Source of the DNA: Desulfovibrio ferrophilus | GTDB taxonomy: Bacteria > Desulfobacterota > Desulfovibrionia > Desulfovibrionales > Desulfovibrionaceae | Direction: 5' to 3' | Assembly (NCBI RefSeq): GCF_003966735.1 | Contig: NZ_AP017378.1 | Coordinates: 372,001-436,000 of the forward strand | Length of the DNA: 64,000 nt | Part shown: positions 32,683 through 62,664 of the stretch, in pieces | Numbering within the stretch: position 1 is the stretch's first letter | How the letters are laid out: every line of letters starts with the position of its first letter | The notes under the pieces: model-generated | Database searches by the model: none | The model's input: the letters and a program-made list of their open reading frames with translations, nothing else | What the model was told of the DNA's origin: nothing | Position numbers and translations under genes: made by a program

Positions 32683-35600
32683 CTAAATCGATGGATGAGG
32701 GCAATTGCAACGGTCCGGGATGAAATAGTCCATGACCGGGAGATCGGTGAATTCCTGTTCCACATTTTGTAACAGGAACTCTGCAGGGTTGTTGAGCAGG
32801 GTCTTGTCCTTGACCGGAACGGTGACACAGAACAGCTCTCCCCAGTTGGTTGAGTAAACGATGCTCGCTTCGACCAAGGCTTTGTGTTCGCGGGGTTGAA
32901 TGAGGTTGAGAATAAAGAAGGCGCGCACGATGCGTTCGGTGTTGAGCATCTCACTGATGTCGGTGTTGAAGGTTGTCTTGGGCGGGAAGAATTCCAGTAG
33001 TTTGTCTTGAAGGGACTCAATGTCCTTGGCTGTGACCGGGGAAATGGAATAGTCGCCCTTGACCCCCATACCTGGTTCGTAAAGGCCATTGGCCGTGAGC
33101 CAGACCAGGGATTCTGCCAGATCCGGCCCTTTGCGCAGGTTGGCCAGTTGGAGGCGATCCTTGCCCGACACTTCCTGAGCGCCTTGTATTTCCCAATACG
33201 AAGGCTGCCCCATTTTTTTGCCCGAGGCCGAGACATGCAAGACCCGAAATGTGTTGCCCGTGATGGACAGGAATGGGATGTGCTCGATCTTGTGCTGACG
33301 CTTGGAGAAGGTAGCAAAGATCTTTCGGCCGAGTTTGGTCAGATCCTCGGGGGTGATGGCGATTTTGATGTTGGCTTGGGAATCGCGGACGCGCATGTAG
33401 GTGCGTACGATGAATTTGTTCACCAGGGTACCGATGCTGACCAATTTGTCGAATGTCCAGTCCATGACCATGGAGGCGTCGCCCTTGCGCGTGGCCGAAG
33501 AGTTGAACAGGTTGTGAATTTCTGTTTCCTCGCGGCGCTGGGCTCTGAGTCCGTCGCTACAGAATTCGGCGATTTTGGTCTTCAGGAAGAAGGATAGCCG
33601 GACCAGCTTCAGAGAGTCTTTTTCCTTGGTGCGGACATAGTGCTCGCTGATTTCATGGAACATGAGCACATAGGGGTCGACCTTGCTCAGGCTGGTGAAG
33701 CCACGGGCCAGATTGTCCTTCAGGCGATCGCAGAGCAGGGTGCTGCCCTCGTTATCCTCGGAGGCGATGTATTTTTCCAGCAACCCGAATTTCATGATGG
33801 ATTTGAAGGGACTCTTCAGGGCTTTGACGATCTGCCACAGGGAGGCTCCGAAAAATTCCTCGGGTGGGATATCAACCAGATTGCCCAGATCCACGTAACG
33901 GTCGGCGGCCCGGCCTGTTGCCAGGGCCGTGCGGATGCGGGCGTACTCTTTGTCACTGCTGCCCACCGGAGTGACCCACCACAGGGGAGCCTTGCCCGCG
34001 GCACACACGGCGGAACGGTAGAACTCCTCCTTGAGCAGGAGAGCCTGGGCAGAGCCTGAACTTTCGGAGTCACTGAACCCGAAATTGTTTTGGCGGATGT
34101 TCTCCAGGTCCATGGTGAAGAAATGGACTTCCAGGCCAAAGGTTTCGTCGGCCCAGCGCTCGATGTGCTCCAGTTTGTCCATCAGGCCATCGATGAGGTT
34201 CTCGGGCATGTTTTCGGGGTCGTAGCAGACCCAGTAGTCCAGGTCGGAACCTGCATTCTGTGCCACGGTTCCCACGCTTCCTATGGTGTACAGGGCTTCG
34301 ATGAGGATCGGGTCCGGAACGGGCATGGGGGGACTGGCCTTGGGGAAGAACTTTCGGGCGAAATCCAGTGTGGTGTAGTCCACGGCATAGCCCGCGACCC
34401 GGGTGTCCAGCGGCAGAGGCTCCAATTCCTTGGAGTGCCTTTCGAACGTCTCGGAATGCAACAGGAATGGAGCAAGGCTGAAGAAGCCCGCTTTTTCCGG
34501 GCCGAGCTTGTCACAGCACCAGGAGATTCGGCGCTCGTTGTTGATCATGAAGGCCAGGGATTGGGCTCTGAGTTCACGGGTCTCGAACCACAGGTCTACG
34601 GCCTTGTCTGCGAGATCTCCATTCTGAGCAGGAGGGGAAATCTTGCCTGCTAGGGTCGCCGAGCGTCTGGTCAGGAAACGGTCTTCGGCCTGCATCAAGG
34701 TTGGATTGTCGGTGAACAACCCCCCGAAGGAAGGGGAGGGCAGCCCTGAGGAAGCCAGGGCTGTGCGCAACAGGCGTGAGCCGCAGAATTTTGCTTGAGT
34801 GCACTGGGACAGCAGGAACTCCAGGCCCTCGCAGTTGCTATCCAAGAGTTGCAGTTCCGTGAGATCGCAGGCCGTGAAGCGGCAGGTCCGCAAGCGGAGA
34901 TCATGGCATTTCAGCCCGCGCAGGTCTGACTCCGAGACATCGAACATGGTGATACGCGAGGCACACAAGGTCATTGTTCGAAGAACACTGCGTTCGATTC
35001 GGATGTCCAGCATGGTGCAATCGAACAGCCGTGCGCCACTAAAGTCACAGTCCACGAAAACGCATTCAATAAAGCGAGTGCCCACGATCAGGGTGTTTGT
35101 GAATTTGACCCCCACAAAGGTGCATTGCTGGAAGGCTGCATTCTCCAGGAAAGCGTTGGAGAAGTCGATGCGTTGCAAGGTTCGGGATTCGTAAATAGGG
35201 GTGACCTTGCGTCCGGAATATTCCGAGGCACTACCACTGTCGCTGACCGTGGAGTCACCAAATTGTACGCTGATGGCTTCGCCCCCGCCGCCGCCTCCGA
35301 ACATGGAGAAGAACCCACCTTCTTTATCTTTTTTCTTCGCAGGGGCTTTCTTGGCCGTTTTGGCTGGTTTGAAGTTCGCGACAGCCTTATCTGCATTGGC
35401 CCAGACTGGTGGTGAAAATGTGGGCAGCAGTTCCAGAAGCGGAGTGGATTCGGCTCCGTTGCTGCCAGTCATGGCCGCTTCAAGATGCGAAAGGGCCGCG
35501 TCCGGTTCCAGGGCTGCCAGGGTTGCGAAAAGTAGTCCGCCCAGTTTCTTCCCCGCATTCCCAAGAGTTTTGATGAACAGCTTGTATTCACGGTTTGGCA

Positions 35601-36528
35601 GCATGGGCAGGCGTGACAGTATGTCCGGCCGGATATTTTCATTCTTCTTGTACAGAGCGGCGAACAGTTTGCCCTGATCTCTGGGAGCCAGCGTGGCAAT
35701 AACGTCCAAGGCACCTCTTTGCACGAGTTTGTCAGGATGCAGGAGCAGCTTGGCGGCAGCCTTGGCGGGAGTGGAGGATGGCTCGGCGTCGGCTTGCGTC
35801 AACAGCTTCAGCGCTGCCCGCAGTGTGGGGGCATGCTGGGTCGTTAGTAGTTCGGTTACCGGAGCGATGCAGTCCGGGCCAGCAATAATGCCGTGCCTGC
35901 TGAGCATTGGGGCCAGATTCTTGTCGGGGCGTTGTCGTGCAGAAATACTCGTTGTGGCTGCATTCAAGGCGTCTGACCAGGCCTTTCCATAGGGCCCGTC
36001 CATGAGGGCCTCTCGAACAGGATAGGCCACGCTGAGGCCTTGTTTGGCGCAGTCTTCGAGGAATTGGCTCGCAGGCTCGGGAGGTGTTTTGGCAATTTTG
36101 GGCAGGGCATCAAGTGCCGCCTGGTGCAGAGGCTCCAGCGATGCGATGCGCCCTGATAGGATACGGTTGACAGCGTGGAGCATCAACTCATTGGGAATGA
36201 TCGAAAGGCCTGGCTGAGTTTTTGGGTCATCCCCCTGGCCGCGCAGGCAGGCCATGATTGCCAACGGGGGGGCTAGGGATCCCATGCCGGGCAGGCAGGA
36301 GGTGTAGAAGGATTCAAGCTCAGGGTCGTTGGCTGATTGAGCGCGGGACATCAGTAACAGAGCGGTCTCGGCAAGAACGGACTCATCCTTGGCTGCGTGC
36401 TCGACGATGTCCTCAATCAGGCGCAGAATTTCTTCCCGCAGCCGTTCCGGTGGCGGGTGGGTGGTGAGTCCCTTGAGCCTTTTGACAAGGTCCGGGAGTT
36501 GCTGGTTGTTTTGAGCTGTTTTCCCCAT
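32683..36528 (-). CDS. Class I adenylate cyclase with N-terminal helical and pentapeptide-repeat regions
   Basis: A very large protein of 1281 residues. Residues 1-380 are helical and resemble HEAT/ARM-type repeats (AALKLLTQ ..., LVQRGALDVIATL). A Lys/Ala-rich linker and a glycine run (about 388-416) lead to residues 450-590, where short repeats such as FSNAFLENAAF and FVDCDFSGARLFDCTM suggest a pentapeptide beta-helix. From about residue 640 the sequence is a class I adenylate cyclase: LYTIGSVGTVAQNAGSDLDYWVCYD (746-770) matches the CyaA active-site region, with the aspartates of SDLD. This cyclase class makes cAMP and is best known in gammaproteobacteria (about 850 residues). The extra parts are likely to be regulatory or targeting domains. 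No membrane segment is seen. Confidence 0.85.
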   Translation of the reverse strand: MGKTAQNNQQLPDLVKRLKGLTTHPPPERLREEILRLIEDIVEHAAKDESVLAETALLLMSRAQSANDPELESFYTSCLPGMGSLAPPLAIMACLRGQGDDPKTQPGLSIIPNELMLHAVNRILSGRIASLEPLHQAALDALPKIAKTPPEPASQFLEDCAKQGLSVAYPVREALMDGPYGKAWSDALNAATTSISARQRPDKNLAPMLSRHGIIAGPDCIAPVTELLTTQHAPTLRAALKLLTQADAEPSSTPAKAAAKLLLHPDKLVQRGALDVIATLAPRDQGKLFAALYKKNENIRPDILSRLPMLPNREYKLFIKTLGNAGKKLGGLLFATLAALEPDAALSHLEAAMTGSNGAESTPLLELLPTFSPPVWANADKAVANFKPAKTAKKAPAKKKDKEGGFFSMFGGGGGGEAISVQFGDSTVSDSGSASEYSGRKVTPIYESRTLQRIDFSNAFLENAAFQQCTFVGVKFTNTLIVGTRFIECVFVDCDFSGARLFDCTMLDIRIERSVLRTMTLCASRITMFDVSESDLRGLKCHDLRLRTCRFTACDLTELQLLDSNCEGLEFLLSQCTQAKFCGSRLLRTALASSGLPSPSFGGLFTDNPTLMQAEDRFLTRRSATLAGKISPPAQNGDLADKAVDLWFETRELRAQSLAFMINNERRISWCCDKLGPEKAGFFSLAPFLLHSETFERHSKELEPLPLDTRVAGYAVDYTTLDFARKFFPKASPPMPVPDPILIEALYTIGSVGTVAQNAGSDLDYWVCYDPENMPENLIDGLMDKLEHIERWADETFGLEVHFFTMDLENIRQNNFGFSDSESSGSAQALLLKEEFYRSAVCAAGKAPLWWVTPVGSSDKEYARIRTALATGRAADRYVDLGNLVDIPPEEFFGASLWQIVKALKSPFKSIMKFGLLEKYIASEDNEGSTLLCDRLKDNLARGFTSLSKVDPYVLMFHEISEHYVRTKEKDSLKLVRLSFFLKTKIAEFCSDGLRAQRREETEIHNLFNSSATRKGDASMVMDWTFDKLVSIGTLVNKFIVRTYMRVRDSQANIKIAITPEDLTKLGRKIFATFSKRQHKIEHIPFLSITGNTFRVLHVSASGKKMGQPSYWEIQGAQEVSGKDRLQLANLRKGPDLAESLVWLTANGLYEPGMGVKGDYSISPVTAKDIESLQDKLLEFFPPKTTFNTDISEMLNTERIVRAFFILNLIQPREHKALVEASIVYSTNWGELFCVTVPVKDKTLLNNPAEFLLQNVEQEFTDLPVMDYFIPDRCNCPHPSI

Positions 36529-39953: not shown

Positions 39954-40832
39954 ATGGTTGATCATGTACTGACGATCGGCGCATTGCTGGCCGAATCTGA
40001 CGAAATATTGAAAGGCGCGGGGGTTGATTCTCCGCGCCTTTCTTCGCAGATTCTGGTGGGTCATGCCCTGGGGCTTGATCGGGTTCGCCTGGTTGTAGAG
40101 CGCGGCCGTGTGCTCAGTGCCGCGGAAGTTTCTGGTATTCGGTCTCTGGTGGCTCGACGGGCTGCAGGTGAACCTGTGGCGTATATCCTCGGGGAGAAGG
40201 AATTCTTCGGTTTGGCCTTCCGGGTCAATTCTGATGTGCTAGTGCCTCGGCCCGAGACCGAGCATCTTGTGGAAGAGGTACAGCGCCACTTCATGCCGGA
40301 CCAAGGTTTTCGGTTTGCCGACTTTGGAACGGGCAGTGGTTGTATTGCAGTCACCCTCGCACACCTGTTTCCCCATGCAATAGGCTTGGCCTTCGATATT
40401 TCAATCGGGGCGCTCGGTGTTGCTTGTGGCAATGCCCGATTGCTTGCCGTGGAGCAGCGCATCGGTTTTGTGCAGGCCGATCTCGAACTTCCTGTGGTCA
40501 GAGGTGCTTCGCTGGATCTTGTGGTTTCGAATCCGCCTTATGTTTCCGAGATGGAATATGGCACTGTAAGTCATGAGGTTTCAGATTTTGAGCCTCGAGG
40601 AGCCCTGGTGCCGGATGTGTCCGGCGAATCCGATGGCCTGGAGTGCTATCGTGCACTGATACCGCTGGCGGGTTGTGCGTTGCGGTCTGGTGGTTGGTTG
40701 ATCATGGAGATCGGATATGACCAGGGGGAGTCGGTTCCACAGATTGTGGATAACTGTTCATTGTTCGATTCGGTCAACGTTGTTTTAGACCTTGCTGGCC
40801 GGGACAGAATTGTTGTGGCCAAGCGATTCTGA
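39954..40832 (+). CDS. prmC: Release factor glutamine methyltransferase PrmC (HemK)
   Basis: PrmC methylates the glutamine of GGQ in release factors using S-adenosylmethionine. The 292-residue product has an N-terminal helical release-factor-binding domain, PRPETEHLVEEV (near residue 95), the SAM-binding DFGTGSGCIAVTLA and the catalytic NPPYVSEME. It directly follows prfA, its substrate's gene. Confidence 0.94.
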   Translation: MVDHVLTIGALLAESDEILKGAGVDSPRLSSQILVGHALGLDRVRLVVERGRVLSAAEVSGIRSLVARRAAGEPVAYILGEKEFFGLAFRVNSDVLVPRPETEHLVEEVQRHFMPDQGFRFADFGTGSGCIAVTLAHLFPHAIGLAFDISIGALGVACGNARLLAVEQRIGFVQADLELPVVRGASLDLVVSNPPYVSEMEYGTVSHEVSDFEPRGALVPDVSGESDGLECYRALIPLAGCALRSGGWLIMEIGYDQGESVPQIVDNCSLFDSVNVVLDLAGRDRIVVAKRF

Positions 40833-40933
40833 TTGTGTGGAAAAACACACGTTGTGGTTTTTTTCATACAAAACCAACGGCTTATTCGTTTTTAAATATT
40901 CAATAAATTCAGTGAGTTGTGTCTTTTGAACGC

Positions 40934-40948
40934 TGGCACGAATTTTGC
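40934..40948 (+). promoter_or_regulatory. Sigma-54 (-24/-12) promoter of lpxC
   Basis: TGGCACG (40934-40940), AATT, then TTGC (40945-40948) reproduce the sigma-54 consensus (TGGCACG, 4 nt, TTGC) exactly, preceded by the expected pyrimidine. The predicted transcript would start near 40960, about 12 nt before the lpxC ATG and right at the GGAGG site (40961-40965). An imperfect palindrome GTGTG/CACAC lies about 95 nt upstream, in the range of enhancer sites. Confidence 0.75.
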
Positions 40949-40971
40949 CTATAGGTGTATGGAGGATATGA

Positions 40972-41895
40972 ATGCACCTACAAACTACTATATCTAAGAC
41001 CGTTCGTTGCTCTGGTGTTGGTCTGCACAGCGGCCGTAAGGTCGGCCTTGAGCTGATTCCGGCTGATGCTGATTCCGGCATCGTCTTTTGCCTGAAGACG
41101 CTCGATGGTGAAAAGTTCATCACTCCCTCTCCTGAAAATGTCGTAGGCACCGGGTTGGCTACCACCTTGGGTAACGGCGATGGTTCTGTTGCCACGGTGG
41201 AACACCTGCTGGCTGCGCTTCGGGGATTGGGGATCGATAATATTCTGGTTAAGGCTGATGGTAGCGAGATTCCGATTATGGATGGTAGTGCCGCTTCCTT
41301 TGTCTATCTTTTGCGCTCGGCCGGTCTTTCCAAGCTGAACAAGCCCCGGCGTGTTCTGGCTGTGACCAAGAGCTTTGAGCACAAGGATGGAGAAAAATCC
41401 ATCAAGGCTCGTCCTTATAACGGATTCAGTGTGGATTACCTCATTGATTTTGATCATCCTTACATCGGAAGCCAGGTCCTGAGTTTTGAACTCACTCCTG
41501 AGAGTTTCGTTCGTCGCATCGCCAAGGCTCGCACCTTCGGCTTTCTGAAGGAAGTCGAATTGCTGCACAAGAATGGCCTTGCTCTTGGTGGATCTCTTGA
41601 TAATGCCGTGGTTCTTGATGAGTATGGCGTGATTAATGATGAGGGTCTGCGCTACAAGGACGAATTTGTGCGCCACAAGGTCTTGGACTTCATCGGCGAC
41701 ATGGCTGTCGCTCCGTTGCCCATTCACGGACATTTTGAAGTGAGTTGCTCTGGGCATGCCTTTAATAATGAATTTTTGCGCCTGCTGACGGATAGGGAAA
41801 TGTCCTGTCTGAAGTTGCAGGAGCTGGCTGCCGACGGCGTGCGTCCTGTGCGCGAAGCCCGTCCTGAAGCCGTGCTTGCGTCCGCAGTGGCGTAA
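40972..41895 (+). CDS. lpxC: UDP-3-O-acyl-N-acetylglucosamine deacetylase LpxC
   Basis: LpxC is the zinc deacetylase of the committed lipid A step, between LpxA and LpxD. The 307-residue product starts QTTISKTVRCSGVGLHSGRKV, and has VEHLLAALRGLGIDN (first zinc histidine, near residue 78), PIMDGSAASFVYLL, and HKVLDFIGDMAV (zinc His and Asp, near residue 230), plus GHFEVSCSGHAFN near the C-terminus with the general acid histidine. GGAGG precedes the ATG. It is apart from the other lpx genes and has its own sigma-54-type promoter and a terminator. Confidence 0.96.
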   Translation: MHLQTTISKTVRCSGVGLHSGRKVGLELIPADADSGIVFCLKTLDGEKFITPSPENVVGTGLATTLGNGDGSVATVEHLLAALRGLGIDNILVKADGSEIPIMDGSAASFVYLLRSAGLSKLNKPRRVLAVTKSFEHKDGEKSIKARPYNGFSVDYLIDFDHPYIGSQVLSFELTPESFVRRIAKARTFGFLKEVELLHKNGLALGGSLDNAVVLDEYGVINDEGLRYKDEFVRHKVLDFIGDMAVAPLPIHGHFEVSCSGHAFNNEFLRLLTDREMSCLKLQELAADGVRPVREARPEAVLASAVA

Positions 41896-41919
41896 GTGTA
41901 ATCAAGGTGCATGATTTTT

Positions 41920-41953
41920 CGGCCCGTCCCGTTTTGGGGCGGGCCGGCCTTAT
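41920..41953 (+). terminator. Terminator after lpxC
   Basis: An 11-bp GC-rich stem with one G-T pair (41920-41930 with 41936-41946) and a GTTTT loop; the T tract (CCTTATTAT) is weak. Confidence 0.6.
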
Positions 41954-42025
41954 TATAAGGATGTAGAAGGGCAGGGGGAATGATGAGAAAATTTCGGGTA
42001 AGCAGAAAAAGGTTCGCTTTTTGGC

Positions 42026-42052
42026 TTGACTTGAAACGTCCCTGCGTATAAT
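42026..42052 (+). promoter_or_regulatory. Promoter of the tRNA-tuf unit
   Basis: A perfect TATAAT (42047-42052) and TTGACT (42026-42031) lie 38 nt before the first tRNA; the spacing of 15 nt is short. The GC-rich sequence following the -10 box (CCCG) is typical of stable-RNA promoters. Confidence 0.6.
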
Positions 42053-42089
42053 TACCCGTTTCCCGACGACGAAGGTCGTCAGAGAGCTG

Positions 42090-42165
42090 GCTGGCGTAGC
42101 TCAATTGGCAGAGCAGCTGATTTGTAATCAGCCGGTTGCGGGTTCGAGTCCCATCGCCAGCTCCA
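42090..42165 (+). tRNA. tRNA-Thr (anticodon TGT)
   Basis: A 76-nt cloverleaf with encoded CCA: acceptor GCTGGCG/CGCCAGC, anticodon stem GCTGA/TCAGC with loop TTTGTAA (anticodon TGT at 42123-42125) and T-arm with GTTCGAGTC. First of four tRNAs. Confidence 0.97.
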
Positions 42166-42182
42166 TTTGAAAATTGAATTGT

Positions 42183-42268
42183 GGAGGGGTTCCCGAGTGG
42201 CCAAAGGGAACAGACTGTAAATCTGTCGGCGATTGCCTTCGGAGGTTCAAATCCTCCCCCCTCCACCA
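42183..42268 (+). tRNA. tRNA-Tyr (anticodon GTA)
   Basis: An 86-nt class II tRNA with a long variable arm. Acceptor GGAGGGG/CCCCTCC, anticodon stem ACAGA/TCTGT with loop CTGTAAA (anticodon GTA), T-arm GGTTCAAATCC and encoded CCA. Confidence 0.97.
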
Positions 42269-42339
42269 TTTTTTAGTTTATTGTGCGAGAAGAGACTGTA
42301 GGAGGCAGAGACCCTGCCGCTGGACTGCAGGACGATCGC

Positions 42340-42416
42340 GCGGGAATAGCTCAATTGGCTAGAGCATCAGCCTTCCAAGCTGAGGGTTGCGGGTTCGAGT
42401 CCCGTTTCCCGCTCCA
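42340..42416 (+). tRNA. tRNA-Gly (anticodon TCC)
   Basis: A 77-nt cloverleaf: acceptor GCGGGAA/TTCCCGC, anticodon stem TCAGC/GCTGA with loop CTTCCAA (anticodon TCC), T-arm with GGTTCGAGTCC, encoded CCA. Confidence 0.97.
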
Positions 42417-42462
42417 TCCATCCCGTCGTCCAGCCCCTCCCCTTCTTCAGTTTTTTATAAAA

Positions 42463-42538
<76 letters not shown>

Positions 42539-42608
42539 TATCCTTTTTGTGTATTCTTTTTTAGTGAACTTCGAACCGCAACCGTAAAAGTACGGGGGTA
42601 GTAAGAAA

Positions 42609-43802
42609 ATGGGCAAGGCAAAATTCGAGCGCACCAAGCCGCACGTTAACATTGGTACCGTCGGCCACATTGACCACGGTAAGACCACTCTGACCGCAGC
42701 TATCACCAAGACCGCCAATATGAAGGGCGGCGGTGCATACGTAGCGTTTGACGAGATCGATAAGGCTCCTGAAGAGAAAGAGCGCGGCATCACCATTGCC
42801 ACCGCTCACGTCGAGTACGAGACCGAGAACAGGCACTACGCTCACGTAGACTGCCCCGGTCACGCCGACTACATCAAAAACATGATCACTGGTGCTGCCC
42901 AGATGGACGGCGCGATCATCGTTGTTGCCGCCACCGACGGCCCCATGCCTCAGACTCGTGAGCACATCCTGCTCGCCCGTCAGGTTGGTGTGCCTTCTCT
43001 GGTCGTCTTCCTGAACAAGGTTGACCTGGTGGACGACGAAGAGCTGCTGGAGCTGGTCGAGATGGAAGTGCGCGAGCTGCTTTCCAAGTACGACTTCCCC
43101 GGCGACGACATTCCGGTCATTCAGGGCTCCGCTCTGAAGGCTCTGGAAGCCGAAACCCTCGACGATCCTGCTTGTCAGCCGATCTTCGATCTGCTGGACG
43201 CTTGTGACAGCTACATCCCTGAGCCCGAGCGCGACATCGAGAAGCCTTTCTTGATGCCCATCGAGGATGTGTTCTCCATCTCTGGCCGCGGCACCGTCGT
43301 GACCGGTCGTGTTGAGCGCGGCATTGTCAAGGTCGGTGAGGAAGTGGAAATCGTTGGTATCAAAGATACCACGAAGACCACCTGCACCGGCGTCGAGATG
43401 TTCCGCAAGCTGCTTGACCAGGGTCAGGCTGGCGACAACGTGGGCGTGCTGCTGCGCGGCGTGAAGCGTGATGAAGTTGAGCGTGGTCAGGTTCTGGCTG
43501 CTCCCAAGTCCATCAACCCCCATACCAAGTTCAAGGCCGAAGTGTACGTCCTGTCCAAGGAAGAGGGCGGTCGTCACACTCCGTTCTTCACCGGCTACCG
43601 TCCCCAGTTCTACTTCCGTACGACCGACATCACTGGTGTCATCGCTCTGGAAGAGGGTGTCGAGATGGTCATGCCCGGCGATAACGCTGTCTTCATCGTA
43701 GAGATGATTCACCCTGTGGCCATGGAAAAGGGCCTGCGCTTCGCAATTCGCGAAGGCGGCCGTACCGTGGGTGCTGGTGTTGTCTCTGAGATCATGGAGT
43801 AA
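42609..43802 (+). CDS. tuf: Elongation factor Tu
   Basis: EF-Tu brings aminoacyl-tRNA to the ribosome. The 397-residue product is complete, with G1 GHIDHGKTT (residues 18-26), the switch region [13 protein letters not shown]3 DCPGHADY and G4 NKVD, then the two beta-barrel domains. Codon use is strongly biased, as expected for a very highly expressed gene. It is followed by rpmG after three bases. Confidence 0.98.
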
Positions 43803-56220: not shown

Positions 56221-59200
56221 TTACGGCAGGGTTTGTTTATCAACGGCGCTGGATGGGGAGGGGGGAGTGACGCCGTTGAAATAGGTACGAATGCTCTTGG
56301 TTGCATCATCCAGAATGCAATACAGGCTGGGGACCAGGCACAGGGTAATGGCCGTGGCGAACAGAATGCCAAACCCAAGAGAGATGGCCATAGGGATCAT
56401 GAAACGAGCTTGACGCGAGGTTTCCAGAAGCATGGGCATCAGGCCGAAGAAGGTGGTGAGCGTGGTCAGCATGATGGGGCGGAACCGCGTTAAGCCCGCC
56501 GCTGTCGCGGCTTCAAAGGCGTTTTGCCCCTGCTCGCTGTTGCTATTTGCGGTATTGATGAAGACTAGGGAATCGTTCACCACCACCCCAGACAGGGCCA
56601 CGATGCCGAACATGCTGGGGATGCACAGGGCATAGCCCATGAGCAGATGCCCAAGAATGGCTCCCACCACACCGAAGGGGATGCAGACCATGATGATCAG
56701 CGGCTGCGTGTAACTCCCGAAGGGGATGGCCAATAGGGCATAGACGACTAGCAGGGCAAGAAGCAGTCCGACTACAAGACTCTGCATACTTTCGGTCATG
56801 TCGGCCTGACGGCCTTCGAAACTCCAGGCAAGGCCCGGTACCGACTTCATCAGACGAGGCAGGACATCACTCTTCAGGCTTTGCAGGACCAGGGTCGCCT
56901 GGGCTGTGGGTTGAACCTCGGCTGTGACCTCGATGGTTCGGCGACCTTGATGGCGGGTGATCTGGGTGTAGGCTCGCCCTCGTTCAATGCTGACGGCTTC
57001 AGTTAACGGAATTTCGCTTCCGTCAGGAGTGCGCAGAATCATGTTTTCCAGGGAATATTCGGTGGCGCGCTCGGCCTTGGGCAAAAGCGTTCGCACTGTG
57101 ATTTCGTTGCGACCGCGTTGCTGAGCCAGGGCTTTTGCACCATAGAAGGCGCTACGCACCTGGGATGCAACGTCGGCGGCCGTCAACCCGGCGGCGAGGC
57201 CAGCAGGCAGCATATGAAAATCCAACTGCTGCTTTCCGTCGGCCGAACCGTCATCGATGTCCGATGCACCACCAAATTTGGACAGTTCAAGAGCCAGAGT
57301 CTGTCCAGCAGCATTGAGGGTTTCGGTGTTGCGATGCGAAAGTTCTACATTGACCGCAGGGTCCGAGCCGGGCCCTCCCTTGTCGGATTTGAAGGTCAGG
57401 TTTTCCAGCCCGGGGATTTCTCCACTGCGTTGGCGCCACTGATTGATGAACGCAGCGGTGCTGATAGGGCGGGCGTCGGCATCGGTGAGGTAGACCCTCA
57501 AGGAAACGGTATTATCCGAAACCACGGAGAAAACTGATTTGACCAGGGCCTGCCCTCCGTTATCTATGGCGACCGCCTCGGCCACTGTGGTCAGGTATTG
57601 TCGCACTTCTTCCAGCCGGGAGGCTGGTGACCCGTACGGCAGGGTTGCTTCACAATAGCCCAGATCGGACTCGGTTTTGGGGAACAGGGTGAAGCCCATC
57701 CGTCCGCTGCCTGCATAGGCGCCGACGATCAGCAACAGGGCCAGTCCGCCCGCAACAACGGCGTAACGGTATTTGAGGGCAGCCCGCAGCAAGGGGCCAT
57801 AGCGATTGATAACAAAGGCATCAAACTTCTTTTGGAAGTTCGTATGCCAGCGCGCCAAACGATTCGTGCTGTGAGTGGCGGAATGCTTTGTGTGAGCCAT
57901 GTGTGCGGGCAGGACGAACAGACTCTCCACCAGCGAGATCAAAAAGACCGTGATGACGACGATGGGGATGTTCCTGAATATTTTGCCGGGAACACCTGGT
58001 ACGAAAAGTAGCGGTGCGAAAGCAGCTACATTGGTCAGCACCGCAAAGGTCACGGGCATGGCCATTTCTTTGGCACCGATGATGGCCGCTTTCAAAGGAG
58101 GCATTCCCTCTTCGCGACGGGCGTGGATGTTTTCGCCCACCACGATGGCGTCGTCCACCACGATTCCCAGGGCAACGATGAAGGCGAACATGGAAATCAT
58201 GTTGATGGACAGATCCATGGAAGGCAGAAACAGGAAAGCCCCGAGAAATGAGATCGGGATGCCCAGGCTGACCCAGAACGCAACGCGAATCTCCAGGAAC
58301 AGTGCCAACAGAATGAAGACCAGGATCAACCCCATCCAGGCGTTTTTGAGCAGCAACTCGGCCCGCTGGTTGAAGGTGTCCGACATGTCCCTGAGCACAG
58401 CCACATCCAGCCCCTCCGGGGCCGATGCCTTGAATTGCTCGACAATGTTCATTGTGGCATCGGAGACCTGACCCGGGGTCTGGTCACCAACACGGTACAC
58501 ATCCAATCCCACCGTGGTCTGGCCATTATAAACCGCATAGTTGTTGGAATCCTCGAAGTCTTCCCGCACAGTGGCAATGTCCTGGACCAGAACCTGCGAA
58601 CCGTCCTCGGTGGAAATGAGCGGGATACGTCCGAATTCCCAAGCCCAGTCGCGGCGTTCCTTGACACGGACCAGGACGTCACCGCCTTTGGTGCGGATGG
58701 TGCCCCCCGGTGTTTCCACCGCTGCTGCGGCGATGGTGTCGGCCACGTGTTCGAGGGTCAGGCCATACCGTCGAAGCTGTGCCTGGGCGATCTCGACGTG
58801 CACTTCATGATCGCGCACTCCTTTGAATTCCACGATGGTGATATCGGGTGACTGGAGCAGCATGTCCCTGAGTTCGTCAGCCTTGTCACGTAAGACAAGT
58901 TCGGTCTGCTCGCCGTAGACAGCAAGGCTTACGACCTCGCGGCTGTGGGTGTTTTCGCTGATAACCGGGTCTTCGGCTTCGTCGGGAAAGGTGGAGATGC
59001 CATCTACTTCGCTTTTCACGTCCTGGGTCAGCTTGGAGATGTCCGCCCCTTCCTGGGCTGTGATGGTGACGCTGGCTGAACCTTCACTGGCTGTGGAGTC
59101 GATTTCATCCACACCGTCCAATCCCTGTACGGCGTCTTCGATGGCCAGGATAATGCCCTGCTCCACCTCTTCGGGGCTGGCACCGGAGTAGGCAACTCTG

Positions 59201-59355
59201 ATGCTGACCTGGTCTTCGGAAAACTCGGGGAAGACCTCCTGCTTGATCATGGTGGCCATGATCAAGCCACCGATCAGGCAGATCAACATGATCAGGTTGG
59301 AGGCTACGGAATTGCCTGCCATCCAGGCAATGGGCCCTTTGCTATTATCCATCAT
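56221..59355 (-). CDS. RND efflux transporter permease
   Basis: An inner-membrane proton-driven pump of 1044 residues with the RND layout: a first membrane helix (MAGNSVASNLIMLICLIGGLIMA), a large periplasmic loop, then membrane helices 2-7, with the proton-relay DD in LGIVVDDAIVVGEN, a second periplasmic loop and helices 8-12. Substrate (drug or metal) is not readable; the CusA-type methionine relay is not evident, so the HAE-1 (drug-type) branch is more likely. The start at ATG 59355 (GGGAGA seven bases upstream, followed by a second ATG) overlaps the fusion-protein gene by 11 bases. Confidence 0.92.
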   Translation of the reverse strand: MMDNSKGPIAWMAGNSVASNLIMLICLIGGLIMATMIKQEVFPEFSEDQVSIRVAYSGASPEEVEQGIILAIEDAVQGLDGVDEIDSTASEGSASVTITAQEGADISKLTQDVKSEVDGISTFPDEAEDPVISENTHSREVVSLAVYGEQTELVLRDKADELRDMLLQSPDITIVEFKGVRDHEVHVEIAQAQLRRYGLTLEHVADTIAAAAVETPGGTIRTKGGDVLVRVKERRDWAWEFGRIPLISTEDGSQVLVQDIATVREDFEDSNNYAVYNGQTTVGLDVYRVGDQTPGQVSDATMNIVEQFKASAPEGLDVAVLRDMSDTFNQRAELLLKNAWMGLILVFILLALFLEIRVAFWVSLGIPISFLGAFLFLPSMDLSINMISMFAFIVALGIVVDDAIVVGENIHARREEGMPPLKAAIIGAKEMAMPVTFAVLTNVAAFAPLLFVPGVPGKIFRNIPIVVITVFLISLVESLFVLPAHMAHTKHSATHSTNRLARWHTNFQKKFDAFVINRYGPLLRAALKYRYAVVAGGLALLLIVGAYAGSGRMGFTLFPKTESDLGYCEATLPYGSPASRLEEVRQYLTTVAEAVAIDNGGQALVKSVFSVVSDNTVSLRVYLTDADARPISTAAFINQWRQRSGEIPGLENLTFKSDKGGPGSDPAVNVELSHRNTETLNAAGQTLALELSKFGGASDIDDGSADGKQQLDFHMLPAGLAAGLTAADVASQVRSAFYGAKALAQQRGRNEITVRTLLPKAERATEYSLENMILRTPDGSEIPLTEAVSIERGRAYTQITRHQGRRTIEVTAEVQPTAQATLVLQSLKSDVLPRLMKSVPGLAWSFEGRQADMTESMQSLVVGLLLALLVVYALLAIPFGSYTQPLIIMVCIPFGVVGAILGHLLMGYALCIPSMFGIVALSGVVVNDSLVFINTANSNSEQGQNAFEAATAAGLTRFRPIMLTTLTTFFGLMPMLLETSRQARFMIPMAISLGFGILFATAITLCLVPSLYCILDDATKSIRTYFNGVTPPSPSSAVDKQTLP

Positions 59356-60571
59356 GACGGCTCTCCCTGATGTTTTCGGAGGCCATAGCGTCATCGGTCT
59401 TTACCTGAACGTGCAGTGTCATGCCCTGAATTGGTGAAGCGATGTCGGTGGTGACCACCTGTTCACCTGTCTGCAGGCCAGAGGTGATGAAGACAGTATT
59501 GCGGTCGCTCCAGGTTACGTTGACAGGGCGGATGTTCAGGGTATTGCCGTTGGCAATCCAAACGGAAGTGCCATCACGCAGGGCCTGCCGGGGCAGGGCG
59601 ATTACATTGGAAACAGTTGGGCCGGTGATGTGTGCCGTGACGTATTCGTTGAGTACCAGTGGCTGGTTTCCATCCCGCAATCCCATCGGATCAGGAATGC
59701 TGATCAAAACCCGGGCCATGCGGCTGGATTCCACCAGTTCTCCAATGCGGCGCAGGACATGACCGGAACGGCTGGCCTGACTGGTTTTGCTCTCGATCTG
59801 CACAGCACTGCCAGGAGTTTGGGAAGTGGAGAAAATGATCCAGCGCAACTGGGAGACCGGAACAGCGGCTTCGATCCAGTATTCATCGGTGCCGACCAGA
59901 GTACCCAGAGTGTCGGTGGTTGAGATGTCGGAACCGAGGTTTACCGAACGCTCGGTGACCAGCGCGTTGAAGGGGGCTTTCACCTGGCTGCGTTCAAGGT
60001 TCAGCCGGGCCACTTCCAGAGCTGCCTCGGCGTCGTCCAGATCTGCCTCGGCTTGAGCCAGTTGCGGTTCTCGCAGGGCAAGAGACGTTTCATTCACTGC
60101 GGTGTCGGAGGAGAGGGAGAGCAGCTCCAACTGAGCTTTGGCCACTTGTTGCTGACCTCTCTCCAGGTCCAGGTCGGCCCGGGTACGTATGACTTCGTTC
60201 TGGGCTTGGCGTAAAGCCAGACGGTAGTCGGTATCATCCAGTTTCAGGGCGATTTCACCGGATTGCAGGAGACCGCCAGGGGTGAAGGATTCCGAAAGCT
60301 TTTGGACGTGACCGGACACCCTGGCGCGTAGTTCGATTTCACGGGCGGCACTGACGGTTCCCATGACCTCGATGCTGATGGGCCGATCTTCGGCTTTGGC
60401 TGATATGGTTTCGACCAGGGTTGGGGTTACGCCAGCGGCTCGGCCTCGACCTGCAGAGGGCCGAGAAAAGAGCAGTGAGGCAGCAATGGCCGCTCCGCCA
60501 AGAAGGAGTAACAGGGGCATTCCAATGGTCAGCCAACGCCGGGAGGAGGTGGCTTTATGTGTATTGTTCAT
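59345..60571 (-). CDS. RND efflux membrane-fusion (periplasmic adaptor) protein
   Basis: A 408-residue adaptor. An N-terminal anchor (RWLTIGMPLLLLLGGAAIAASLLF, without a lipobox) precedes the barrel (GTVSAAREIELRARVSGHV), a long helical hairpin (RTRADLDLERGQQ ... ARLNLERSQVKAPF), the beta barrel (LVGTDEYWIEAAVPVSQLRW) and the membrane-proximal domain (ALPRQALRDGTSVWIANGNTL). It links the pump to the outer-membrane factor. Its ATG overlaps the upstream stop by one base (TGATG). Confidence 0.9.
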   Translation of the reverse strand: MNNTHKATSSRRWLTIGMPLLLLLGGAAIAASLLFSRPSAGRGRAAGVTPTLVETISAKAEDRPISIEVMGTVSAAREIELRARVSGHVQKLSESFTPGGLLQSGEIALKLDDTDYRLALRQAQNEVIRTRADLDLERGQQQVAKAQLELLSLSSDTAVNETSLALREPQLAQAEADLDDAEAALEVARLNLERSQVKAPFNALVTERSVNLGSDISTTDTLGTLVGTDEYWIEAAVPVSQLRWIIFSTSQTPGSAVQIESKTSQASRSGHVLRRIGELVESSRMARVLISIPDPMGLRDGNQPLVLNEYVTAHITGPTVSNVIALPRQALRDGTSVWIANGNTLNIRPVNVTWSDRNTVFITSGLQTGEQVVTTDIASPIQGMTLHVQVKTDDAMASENIRESRHDG

Positions 60572-62019
60572 CACGAGTGTTTCCTTGTGATATTGGTGAG
60601 AATGAGGCCCGTTGGGGTGAGTTTGTCTGCCCAGTCAGTACCTAGAGCCCGATAGAGGGTGATGCGGTTCTTGAGGAGGTCGGTTTTTTCCTGAATCAGT
60701 GTGCGTTCCAGAGTCTGAACGGTGGTTAGCGCATTAAGCATGGAAAGATAATCGTCCACGCCGTTCAAATAGCGTCGGTGCGCTTCCTCCTTGGCCAGAC
60801 GGGCGGCTGTGAGTTGCTTGCCTAGTGCCAGAAGGTAGTCTTGTTGCCCGGATTCGGTCACCAGCGCATCCTCAACTTCCTGAATGGCGGTGAAGACGGT
60901 TTCCTCGTAGGCAGCCAATCGCTCCTGAGCCAGAGCGCGGGTGCGATCAACCTCGGCCGCGCGTGTTCCACCGTCGAGCAGCGGGAAGACCAGACTGGAG
61001 GCCAGATTAAGGCTCCAGGCATCAAACAGATTTTCCAGTGTGTTTCCTCCGTAATCTGCGGAAGCACTGAGAGTCAGATCGGGCAGACGGTCAGCGCGGG
61101 CGGTGGCGATTTGCCAATCGGCAGACTCAAGAGCCAGACCTGCAGAGCGAATATCCGGGCGTGAGGCCAGAAGATCGGCAGGAAATCCCGTTTTGGGTGG
61201 GGTGGGTAGATCGGGTAGGGCGGAACTCTGGGGCAACTGCAGGCTGCCAGGCATCTGACCTGTCAGTATGGCTAACTCGTTGAGGGTTGTTCGTTCCTGG
61301 GTTTTGAGTGGAGGGAGCAGGGCCTTGGTTGCTGCCAGGGTTTGCTGTTGTTGCAGAATGTCCAGAGCCGAGGCCTGGGAAGCAGCGAAAAGCAATTGCT
61401 GAACGCTCAGGATTTGCTCGTTGGTGGCAACCTGATTCCGCACCAGGCGAACCTGTTCACGAGTGGCGAGTAAATCCAACCAGGCTTCGCTGACCTCACC
61501 GGCGACGGTGATAGCGGCAGTATTCAAGTCTTCGCGTGATGCCTGGGCATCGAGGAGTCCCGACTGAGCGGTGGCCCGAAGGCGTCCCCAGAGATCAAGT
61601 TCGTAGGAAGCAGCAAGTCCGAGTCCGTAGGAGTCACTCAGGGTTAAAGAGTCTGCCCCGGATGAAGGGGTTTCGGTCCAACTGCGAGTGTGTCCGGTGT
61701 CACCCGTGGCATTCAGTGACGGAGTCAGCGCTGCTCCTGCCTGTCTGGCCAATGCCCTGGATTGCTCGAGTTGTGCCCAGTACTGCCGCAACGTGAAGCC
61801 TCTGGAGAGGGCCTTGTCCACCAGCATGTTCAGTTGTGCACTATTGAATTGCTCCCACCATTGCCCTGGAGCTTCGCCCAGAGGTGAATACAGGGAGTAG
61901 TGGGCAGGTAGTGCCGCTGAAAGCGTATCGCGTTTTTCAGGGGCAAAGGGTGCACAACCCACCGCGAGTATTACCAAGGGAGTCACGCAGGTGAGGAGAA
62001 GTAGGCGAAGGTGTTTCAT
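60571..62019 (-). CDS. Outer-membrane efflux lipoprotein (NodT/OprM type)
   Basis: A 482-residue TolC-like channel. It begins with a lipoprotein signal ending in ILAVGC|AP (cysteine near residue 22), then two repeats of the outer-membrane efflux domain: LYSPLGEAPGQWWEQF, LSDSYGLGLAASYELDLWGRL in the first half, and ADRLPDLTLSASADYGGNTLENL in the second. I chose the ATG at 62019 because it gives the signal peptide directly; an in-frame ATG at 62052 would coincide with the predicted transcription start. It is first gene of the efflux unit and has its own copy of the ECF-type promoter motif. Confidence 0.9.
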   Translation of the reverse strand: MKHLRLLLLTCVTPLVILAVGCAPFAPEKRDTLSAALPAHYSLYSPLGEAPGQWWEQFNSAQLNMLVDKALSRGFTLRQYWAQLEQSRALARQAGAALTPSLNATGDTGHTRSWTETPSSGADSLTLSDSYGLGLAASYELDLWGRLRATAQSGLLDAQASREDLNTAAITVAGEVSEAWLDLLATREQVRLVRNQVATNEQILSVQQLLFAASQASALDILQQQQTLAATKALLPPLKTQERTTLNELAILTGQMPGSLQLPQSSALPDLPTPPKTGFPADLLASRPDIRSAGLALESADWQIATARADRLPDLTLSASADYGGNTLENLFDAWSLNLASSLVFPLLDGGTRAAEVDRTRALAQERLAAYEETVFTAIQEVEDALVTESGQQDYLLALGKQLTAARLAKEEAHRRYLNGVDDYLSMLNALTTVQTLERTLIQEKTDLLKNRITLYRALGTDWADKLTPTGLILTNITRKHS

Positions 62020-62059
62020 GGGAGGTGTTCTTCCGGTTGATGATGAGATCATGGTGGAA

Positions 62060-62087
62060 GAACGGTTGGGGTGCGCAAAACCTGCGC
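62060..62087 (-). promoter_or_regulatory. Predicted ECF-sigma promoter of the efflux genes
   Basis: On the minus strand GCGCAGG (62087-62081), a 16-nt spacer, then CGTTC (62064-62060), with TTTTT before the first box. It shares both boxes and the exact spacing with the site before the anti-sigma gene. Transcription should begin near 62052, about 33 nt before the outer-membrane factor start. Confidence 0.7.
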
Positions 62088-62109
62088 AAAAAGTTCTGTT
62101 TAATTTGTC

Positions 62110-62664
62110 CTAGGCGGACAGGGGAGAGAGGACGGAGCGCAGGGCTTTGCGGGCACGGACAAGCAGGGATTCCACAGCCGAGACCGTGACATCCATGGCC
62201 ATGGCTATTTCATCGTAGCGCAGGCCTTCGTTGTGCCGCAGGATGAGCGCGGTCCGTTGTGATTCGGGCAGACGGCGTACTGCCTGGGCCAGAGCGTCGG
62301 CTGTTTCCTGGCGGATGGCGGCGTGCATGGGGGTGTCATGGTCCGGCTGTTCGGGAAGTTGTTCCACAAGTAGTGGTTTCTTCTTGCGTACGTAGTCCAG
62401 GCACAGGTTGCGGGCGATACGCATGGCCCAAGCCCGGAAGCTGGTGCCCGGAGTGTAGGTGGCAGCATTGGTAAAGATACGCAGGAATGTTTCCTGGGCC
62501 ACGTCCGCCGCTTCGTGGGCGTCGCCCAGAAAGCGGAAGGCAAAGCCATGCACGGACCCCTGGTGTCGCTCCAGCAGTTCCCGGAAGGCTCGATGATCCT
62601 CGTCAGCAATAAGCAGCATCAGATGATCGTCATCGAGGGAAGAGTAGTTTTTAAAGAAGAGCAT
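62110..62664 (-). CDS. ECF RNA polymerase sigma factor
   Basis: A 184-residue sigma-70-family ECF factor. Region 2 includes GFAFRFLGDAHEAADVAQETFLRIF (residues 40-65) and AWAMRIARNLCLDYVRKKK; region 4 is LPESQRTALILRHNEGLRYDEIAMAMDVTVSAVESLLVRARKALR, a typical helix-turn-helix for the -35 box. It follows the sensor gene by 14 nt, and the anti-sigma and sensor genes are upstream in the same unit. The CnrYXH-like set suggests release of sigma when the periplasmic sensor is triggered. Confidence 0.92.
   Translation of the reverse strand: MLFFKNYSSLDDDHLMLLIADEDHRAFRELLERHQGSVHGFAFRFLGDAHEAADVAQETFLRIFTNAATYTPGTSFRAWAMRIARNLCLDYVRKKKPLLVEQLPEQPDHDTPMHAAIRQETADALAQAVRRLPESQRTALILRHNEGLRYDEIAMAMDVTVSAVESLLVRARKALRSVLSPLSA

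Follow-up and report, generated by a model that had tools for sequence, protein, structure and literature searches.

How is lpxC, the gene for the committed enzyme of lipid A synthesis, transcribed in Desulfovibrio ferrophilus, and what would switch it on? In the stretch of DNA that was analysed (64 kb, the window in what follows), lpxC follows prfA and prmC on the forward strand. The initial annotation placed a sigma-54 promoter in front of lpxC, with a start about 12 nt before the ATG, at the ribosome-binding site itself, and proposed a GTGTG/CACAC palindrome some 95 nt upstream as a candidate activator site. A profile match identifies the gene as lpxC, both boxes lie where they were said to lie, and the palindrome is present, 99 nt from the -24 box, start to start (Table 1). 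The GG and GC dinucleotides stand in the TGGCACG-N4-TTGC spacing, the spacer is AATT and the base after TTGC is C; the published Desulfovibrio sigma-54 consensus is tGGcacg / tTGCt, as given in the available part of PMC4641369. Counting 12 nt past the C of the -12 element puts the predicted start where it had been expected, and the predicted leader of 12 nt begins at the ribosome-binding site.

Table 1. Features upstream of and including lpxC (positions in the window), and the candidate regulator (position in the genome, contig C1)
Feature	Position	Strand	Basis or remark
prmC, upstream neighbour	39954..40832	+	TIGR03534, E 1.2e-74; stop 40832
Candidate upstream activator site TTGTGTGGAAAAACACAC	40833..40850	+	19.6 bits to the family motif; exact 16-mer unique in genome
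Hairpin over the palindrome	40833..40871	+	-14.8 kcal/mol, z -2.47
Terminator-like match at the palindrome	40834..40851	+	sequence scan
Palindrome GTGTGgaaaaaCACAC, GTGTG-N6-CACAC	40835..40850	+	sequence; between prmC stop and lpxC ATG
Possible second activator site (weak, low confidence)	40861..40878	+	5.2 bits to the family motif
Sigma-54 -24 element TGGCACG	40934..40940	+	sequence; kept in relatives
Sigma-54 -12 element TTGC	40945..40948	+	sequence; kept in relatives
Predicted transcription start	40960	+	12 nt past the -12 C (40948); from box position
GGAGG ribosome-binding site, within the predicted 12-nt leader	40961..40965	+	sequence
lpxC, UDP-3-O-acyl-N-acetylglucosamine deacetylase, 307 aa	40972..41895	+	ATG 40972; TIGR00325, E 1.3e-91
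NtrX-like response regulator with GAFTGA	C1:634493-635863		about 215 kb from lpxC

The best-supported account, and one that we consider quite probable, is that lpxC has a sigma-54 promoter activated from the palindrome by an NtrX-like regulator. Sigma-54 RNA polymerase would transcribe lpxC from the two boxes (40934-40948), starting near 40960. An NtrY-like kinase would phosphorylate the NtrX-like regulator encoded in the same operon (C1:634493-635863), the phosphorylated regulator would bind the palindrome about 100 nt upstream, and its GAFTGA loop would open the lpxC promoter. A DUF4390 protein and an HD-GYP regulator probably feed envelope and cyclic-di-GMP signals into the regulator. What we infer in this scheme is where transcription starts, that the regulator activates instead of represses, and which signals are sensed. 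The earlier reading, sigma-54 control of lpxC through an enhancer-binding regulator with the palindrome as its site, is supported by the conservation of the box, a family motif, a GAFTGA-bearing candidate and the published binding of DVU2934.

The genome contains 24 strong and two weak matches to the sigma-54 activator domain, and the strong ones make it likely that an RpoN gene is present. The candidate regulator has a REC domain, a GAFTGA-bearing sigma-54 activation domain and a Fis-type HTH. It is the last member of an operon-like row that encodes a DUF4390 protein, a kinase with an NtrY N-terminal region (PF19312, E 2.7e-9, covering positions 67-145 of 291 only), an epimerase and a REC-PAS-HD-GYP protein (HD_5 at 281-439 of 455); thus, both a kinase and a REC-HD-GYP protein are encoded beside the NtrX-like regulator. 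The five-gene DVU2934 operon of D. vulgaris has the same content of kinase, HD-GYP regulator and sigma-54-type regulator. From this gene content, rather than from a sequence comparison with DVU2934, we infer that the row is the counterpart of DVU2931-2934.

In D. vulgaris Hildenborough, according to the available text of PMC3333781, DAP-chip gave lpxC (DVU2917) as the only target of DVU2934, with a motif verified by gel shift. DVU2934 is also listed with GAFTGA and lpxC in the accessible part of PMC4641369. The D. vulgaris operon is described, in portions of PMC3333781 and PMC4114195, as five genes that include the kinase, DVU2931, DVU2933 and DVU2934. The HD-GYP domain of DVU2933, at 282-458, degrades cyclic-di-GMP in vitro (PMC4114195, same portion). 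Both units have a sigma-54-type response regulator, an operon with a kinase and an HD-GYP protein, and a site, here a candidate one, upstream of lpxC. They differ in species and in breadth: the motif was reported in few strains there, namely, among relatives, at the lpxC genes of D. vulgaris Miyazaki and D. desulfuricans G20 alone (PMC3333781, in the text available), whereas here a motif recurs across the family.

A sigma-54 promoter could be real and still be driven by another of the 24 activators, or be supplemented by read-through or a housekeeping promoter, so that sigma-54 would only tune lpxC. The number of strong activator domains allows for this, as does the fact that lpxC comes after prmC in the same orientation. 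According to the section of PMC4114195 at hand, a DVU2933 transposon mutant could be obtained, and therefore the dependence of lpxC on the operon may be partial. Against this, a simple consensus scan of 40700-42700 gave no sigma-70-like site (1.5 expected), a hairpin lies between prmC and lpxC, and the co-occurrence and gene clustering described below point to one activator. We regard this alternative as unlikely, and return to the NtrX-like regulator and its presumed site.

One match to the palindrome pattern is present in the window, where 0.08 would be expected, and the exact 16-mer is a single copy in the genome. The proposal that it is an activator site gains from a motif shared by relatives: motif EM on 64 family upstream regions found TGTGgNNAAAAANNCAC (.TGTgGc.AAAAAgcCAC), with a log-likelihood of 409 against 81-93 in three resampled sets, and this motif coincides with the palindrome. 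In 50 of the 64 regions the highest-scoring site begins 80-109 nt upstream of the box. In 44 regions there is a second site above 5 bits, and in 19 of these 44 it is 18-19 nt from the first. Nevertheless, the palindrome could be nothing but the terminator of prfA-prmC, which would fit both the stable hairpin and the terminator-like match over it. The distance of the motif from the box in so many relatives, its frequent repetition and the uniqueness of the exact 16-mer in the genome argue otherwise, and we give this alternative a slightly lower chance than the previous one. The two roles could be combined, with the hairpin ending the prmC transcript and the palindrome serving as both terminator and activator site.

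Looser matches to the palindrome are less telling by number, since sites with up to three mismatches count 20 in the genome against 20 for the reversed control. Among these 20 sites, a box of score at least 9 lies downstream (99 nt) at the lpxC site only. At other sites, a score-9 box lies 55 nt upstream (L297), a score-8 box 56 nt upstream (L308), boxes of score 8 and 9 overlap the site (L299), and a score-8 box lies 158 nt downstream (L311). A second palindrome pair, at C1:966232-966290, was rejected as a candidate; it lies within a TrkH-like coding sequence (by eye) with no sigma-54 box nearby. A site of the form GTG-N8-11-CAC was not enriched in 30 loci from other families of the order (5 against 4.2 expected).

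The box at lpxC, in turn, is held to be real because it is conserved in relatives; its count alone does not exceed chance. With at most one mismatch the pattern occurs twice in the window (1.99 expected, i.e., the chance level), and exact matches in the 3.72-Mb genome number six against five for a reversed control pattern. Four of the six exact boxes fall in no stop-to-stop frame longer than 150 codons, and the other two are just upstream of lpxC and of nifH (the latter gene recognised by eye). The six are not randomly placed in the genome, and position helps the case. The exact consensus upstream of nifH (L032, C1:1601145) is a useful internal standard.

LpxC was found in 69 of 99 family genomes, and the TIGR00325 model gives the same 69. 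For the counts, a box was required to keep GG and GC and to match in at least 8 of 11 bases, start codons were picked by script, and three loci were excluded: L036 (upstream region identical to that of L002), the fragment G022 and the second LpxC-like gene of G011. L002 was the one useful relative that came from a scan of genome contigs. Conservation of both boxes had been suggested as a check, and the result was clear: at 64 of the 68 lpxC loci of the family, a box lies no more than 100 nt from the start. Extending the distance to 200 nt brings the number to 66 of 68, whereas 1 of 68 has one within lpxC itself and resampled sequences have one in 8.6% of cases (the resampled controls throughout are first-order Markov draws, not exact shuffles). 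Two loci (L094 and L099) account for the difference, their boxes lying more than 100 nt out, and in the two loci without a box (L079 and L098), inspection by eye shows GG or GC with one base changed. With the box beginning at -36 to -39 in 35 of the 66 loci, the near-absent leader claimed for this lpxC is common in the family as well.

In 46 of the 56 family rows in which prmC was found upstream, 124-237 nt separate it from lpxC. In G069 (L099), lpxC begins 65 nt past the prmC match, as if it had moved into the prmC operon; no box occurs within 100 nt, and this genome has no activator ortholog over the cut-off.

That the boxes match by chance, with lpxC transcribed in some other way, is very improbable: counts in window and genome do equal chance, but the box recurs at the 64 of 68 family loci and, across the phylum, at 68 of 129 loci, where the reverse strand gives 2 of 129.

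Orthologs of the activator were called at 56% identity or more in the family and at 49% or more in the phylum, cut-offs set by eye at gaps in the lists, and the lists were entered by hand into the co-occurrence scripts. In the family, 63 genomes have both LpxC and the activator, six LpxC alone, four the activator alone and 26 neither (Fisher 3e-14); four of the six with LpxC alone are less than 90% complete. Genomes at least 90% complete give 55/2/4/20 in the same order, and one genome per genus gives 27/0/2/8 (p 1e-6). These family p-values overstate the case because the genomes share ancestry.

Beyond the family, an activator ortholog is present in all 54 genomes from other families of the order among the matches listed; 16 genomes with no match lie outside that list. 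Of these genomes, 42 were tested for LpxC and 37 gave a match; at 22 of the 30 loci read the box is present, against 2.8% of resampled sequences. Six of the eight loci without it belong to one genus (g55), where TTGA replaces TTGC. All six loci read in this genus (L155-L159 and L164) have TGGCATG with TTGA shortly before the lpxC ATG, and these letters may mean a variant -12 box and an mRNA with almost no leader.

Across the phylum, 136 of 148 genomes gave an LpxC match. From 137 rows, G000, G029 and five rows that were fragments or cut at the N terminus (G259, G295, G274, G275 and G225) were left out, followed by G239, whose upstream region is short, so that the set scored was 129 loci of 128 genomes. 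A box within 150 nt is present at the 68 loci mentioned above, compared with 3.6% of resampled sequences. Box and activator are both present for 66 loci, the box only for two, the activator only for 20 and neither for 41 (Fisher 5e-16). In other words, 66 of the 68 boxed loci are in genomes with an activator ortholog, and 20 of the 86 activator loci have no box. On an LpxC tree (a quick method with a simple model), one trait changes 13 times and the other 10. Independent pairs number 9-11: about four point in the same direction, almost none in the opposite one, and the rest show no difference (median p 0.125). After this correction, the co-occurrence keeps its direction without being significant, and so it is consistent with the account rather than proof of it.

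The genes are also often neighbours. At 27 of the 86 activator loci, spread over 18 families, lpxC and the activator lie within 10 kb on one strand; eight of them lack a box within 150 nt. Among 12 of these neighbourhoods, chosen by hand, a kinase was recognised in ten, and an ORF of 186-195 aa lies between lpxC and the regulator in seven; the three such ORFs that were scanned are all DUF4390. The regulator operon of Syntrophobacter fumaroxidans has lpxC immediately upstream of it, and DVU2934 orthologs are known outside Desulfovibrio (both from the available text of PMC3333781).

These patterns suggest a broader reading, towards which we lean slightly: across much of the phylum an envelope sensor, made up of DUF4390, NtrY-like and NtrX-like proteins, would drive lpxC via sigma-54, often from the same gene cluster, and loss of lpxC would go with loss of the activator. 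In that case lpxC, whose function is usually essential, would stand wholly under sigma-54. Should the pattern hold, the committed step is under a sigma-54 two-component switch in many bacteria, which would give NtrYX and DUF4390 systems a definite output that can be tested. The control itself is not new; sigma-54/DVU2934 control of lpxC has been in print for D. vulgaris since 2011 and 2015. As far as our literature search shows, what is new is the breadth and the clustering of lpxC with the activator across the phylum, and part of the family-wide breadth may already be in print (regulon conservation in PMC4641369). No phylum-wide claim of this kind was found in the portions of the CC-licensed literature available, and a 2025 review on how lipid A is regulated (PMC12444477), searched by word, mentions neither Desulfovibrio nor RpoN.

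Other systems resemble this one in part. In Rhodobacter sphaeroides, an NtrY-like kinase and an NtrX-like regulator are likewise tied to lpxC expression, but there lpxC mRNA rises 8.8-fold without NtrYX, and the available text reports no NtrX site at lpxC, reads the control as indirect and, as far as it extends, mentions no sigma-54 promoter for lpxC (PMC7240162). As NtrYX lowers lpxC mRNA there, and by a route read as indirect, the sign of control is not transferable. Bordetella PlrSR, with PlrP, is also an NtrYX-family pair with a periplasmic DUF4390 protein encoded beside the kinase, and in the sections of PMC13001219 at hand genetics suggests an effect of this protein on the NtrY-type kinase, exerted from the periplasm; neither lpx nor sigma54 appears as a word in the paper's text. 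A sigma-54 promoter predicted by software has been noted for Leptospira lpxC, in the part available of a review (PMC12655853).

Some genomes of the family may do without LpxC altogether. No LpxC match was obtained in 24 of the 81 near-complete family genomes, and in seven genera all of the sampled genomes (2-4 each) have none; the genera concerned include g9, g10, g15, g25, g26, g40 and g41. Judged by the LpxC match alone, such lineages may lack canonical lipid A. The LpxC-like gene that G011 has in addition (C43:14566-15402) is 35% identical and shows an in-frame TAG and a model score under the cut-off; the activator ortholog at C43:18723 is about 3.3 kb away.

Two other features of the window may be mentioned. 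A 1281-aa protein (32683-36528) combines pentapeptide repeats with a class I adenylate cyclase-like part, both matches being under the curated cut-offs. On the reverse strand, an ECF sigma factor gene is followed by outer-membrane, HlyD-type and RND efflux genes (56221-62664); these were recognised by eye, the HlyD-type gene being the only one scanned by profile.

What is best known of lipid A control is the proteolysis of LpxC in E. coli and related bacteria. There, FtsH/LapB target the same committed enzyme, acting on the protein and not on transcription, and the FtsH degron of E. coli LpxC is LAXXXXXAVLA (both from the available part of PMC12444477). The tail of LpxC here (41863-41895) is non-polar, with AVLASAVA, and resembles that degron; among the family LpxC tails listed, 27 of 34 end in A. 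By this resemblance, proteolytic control of LpxC may also exist here.
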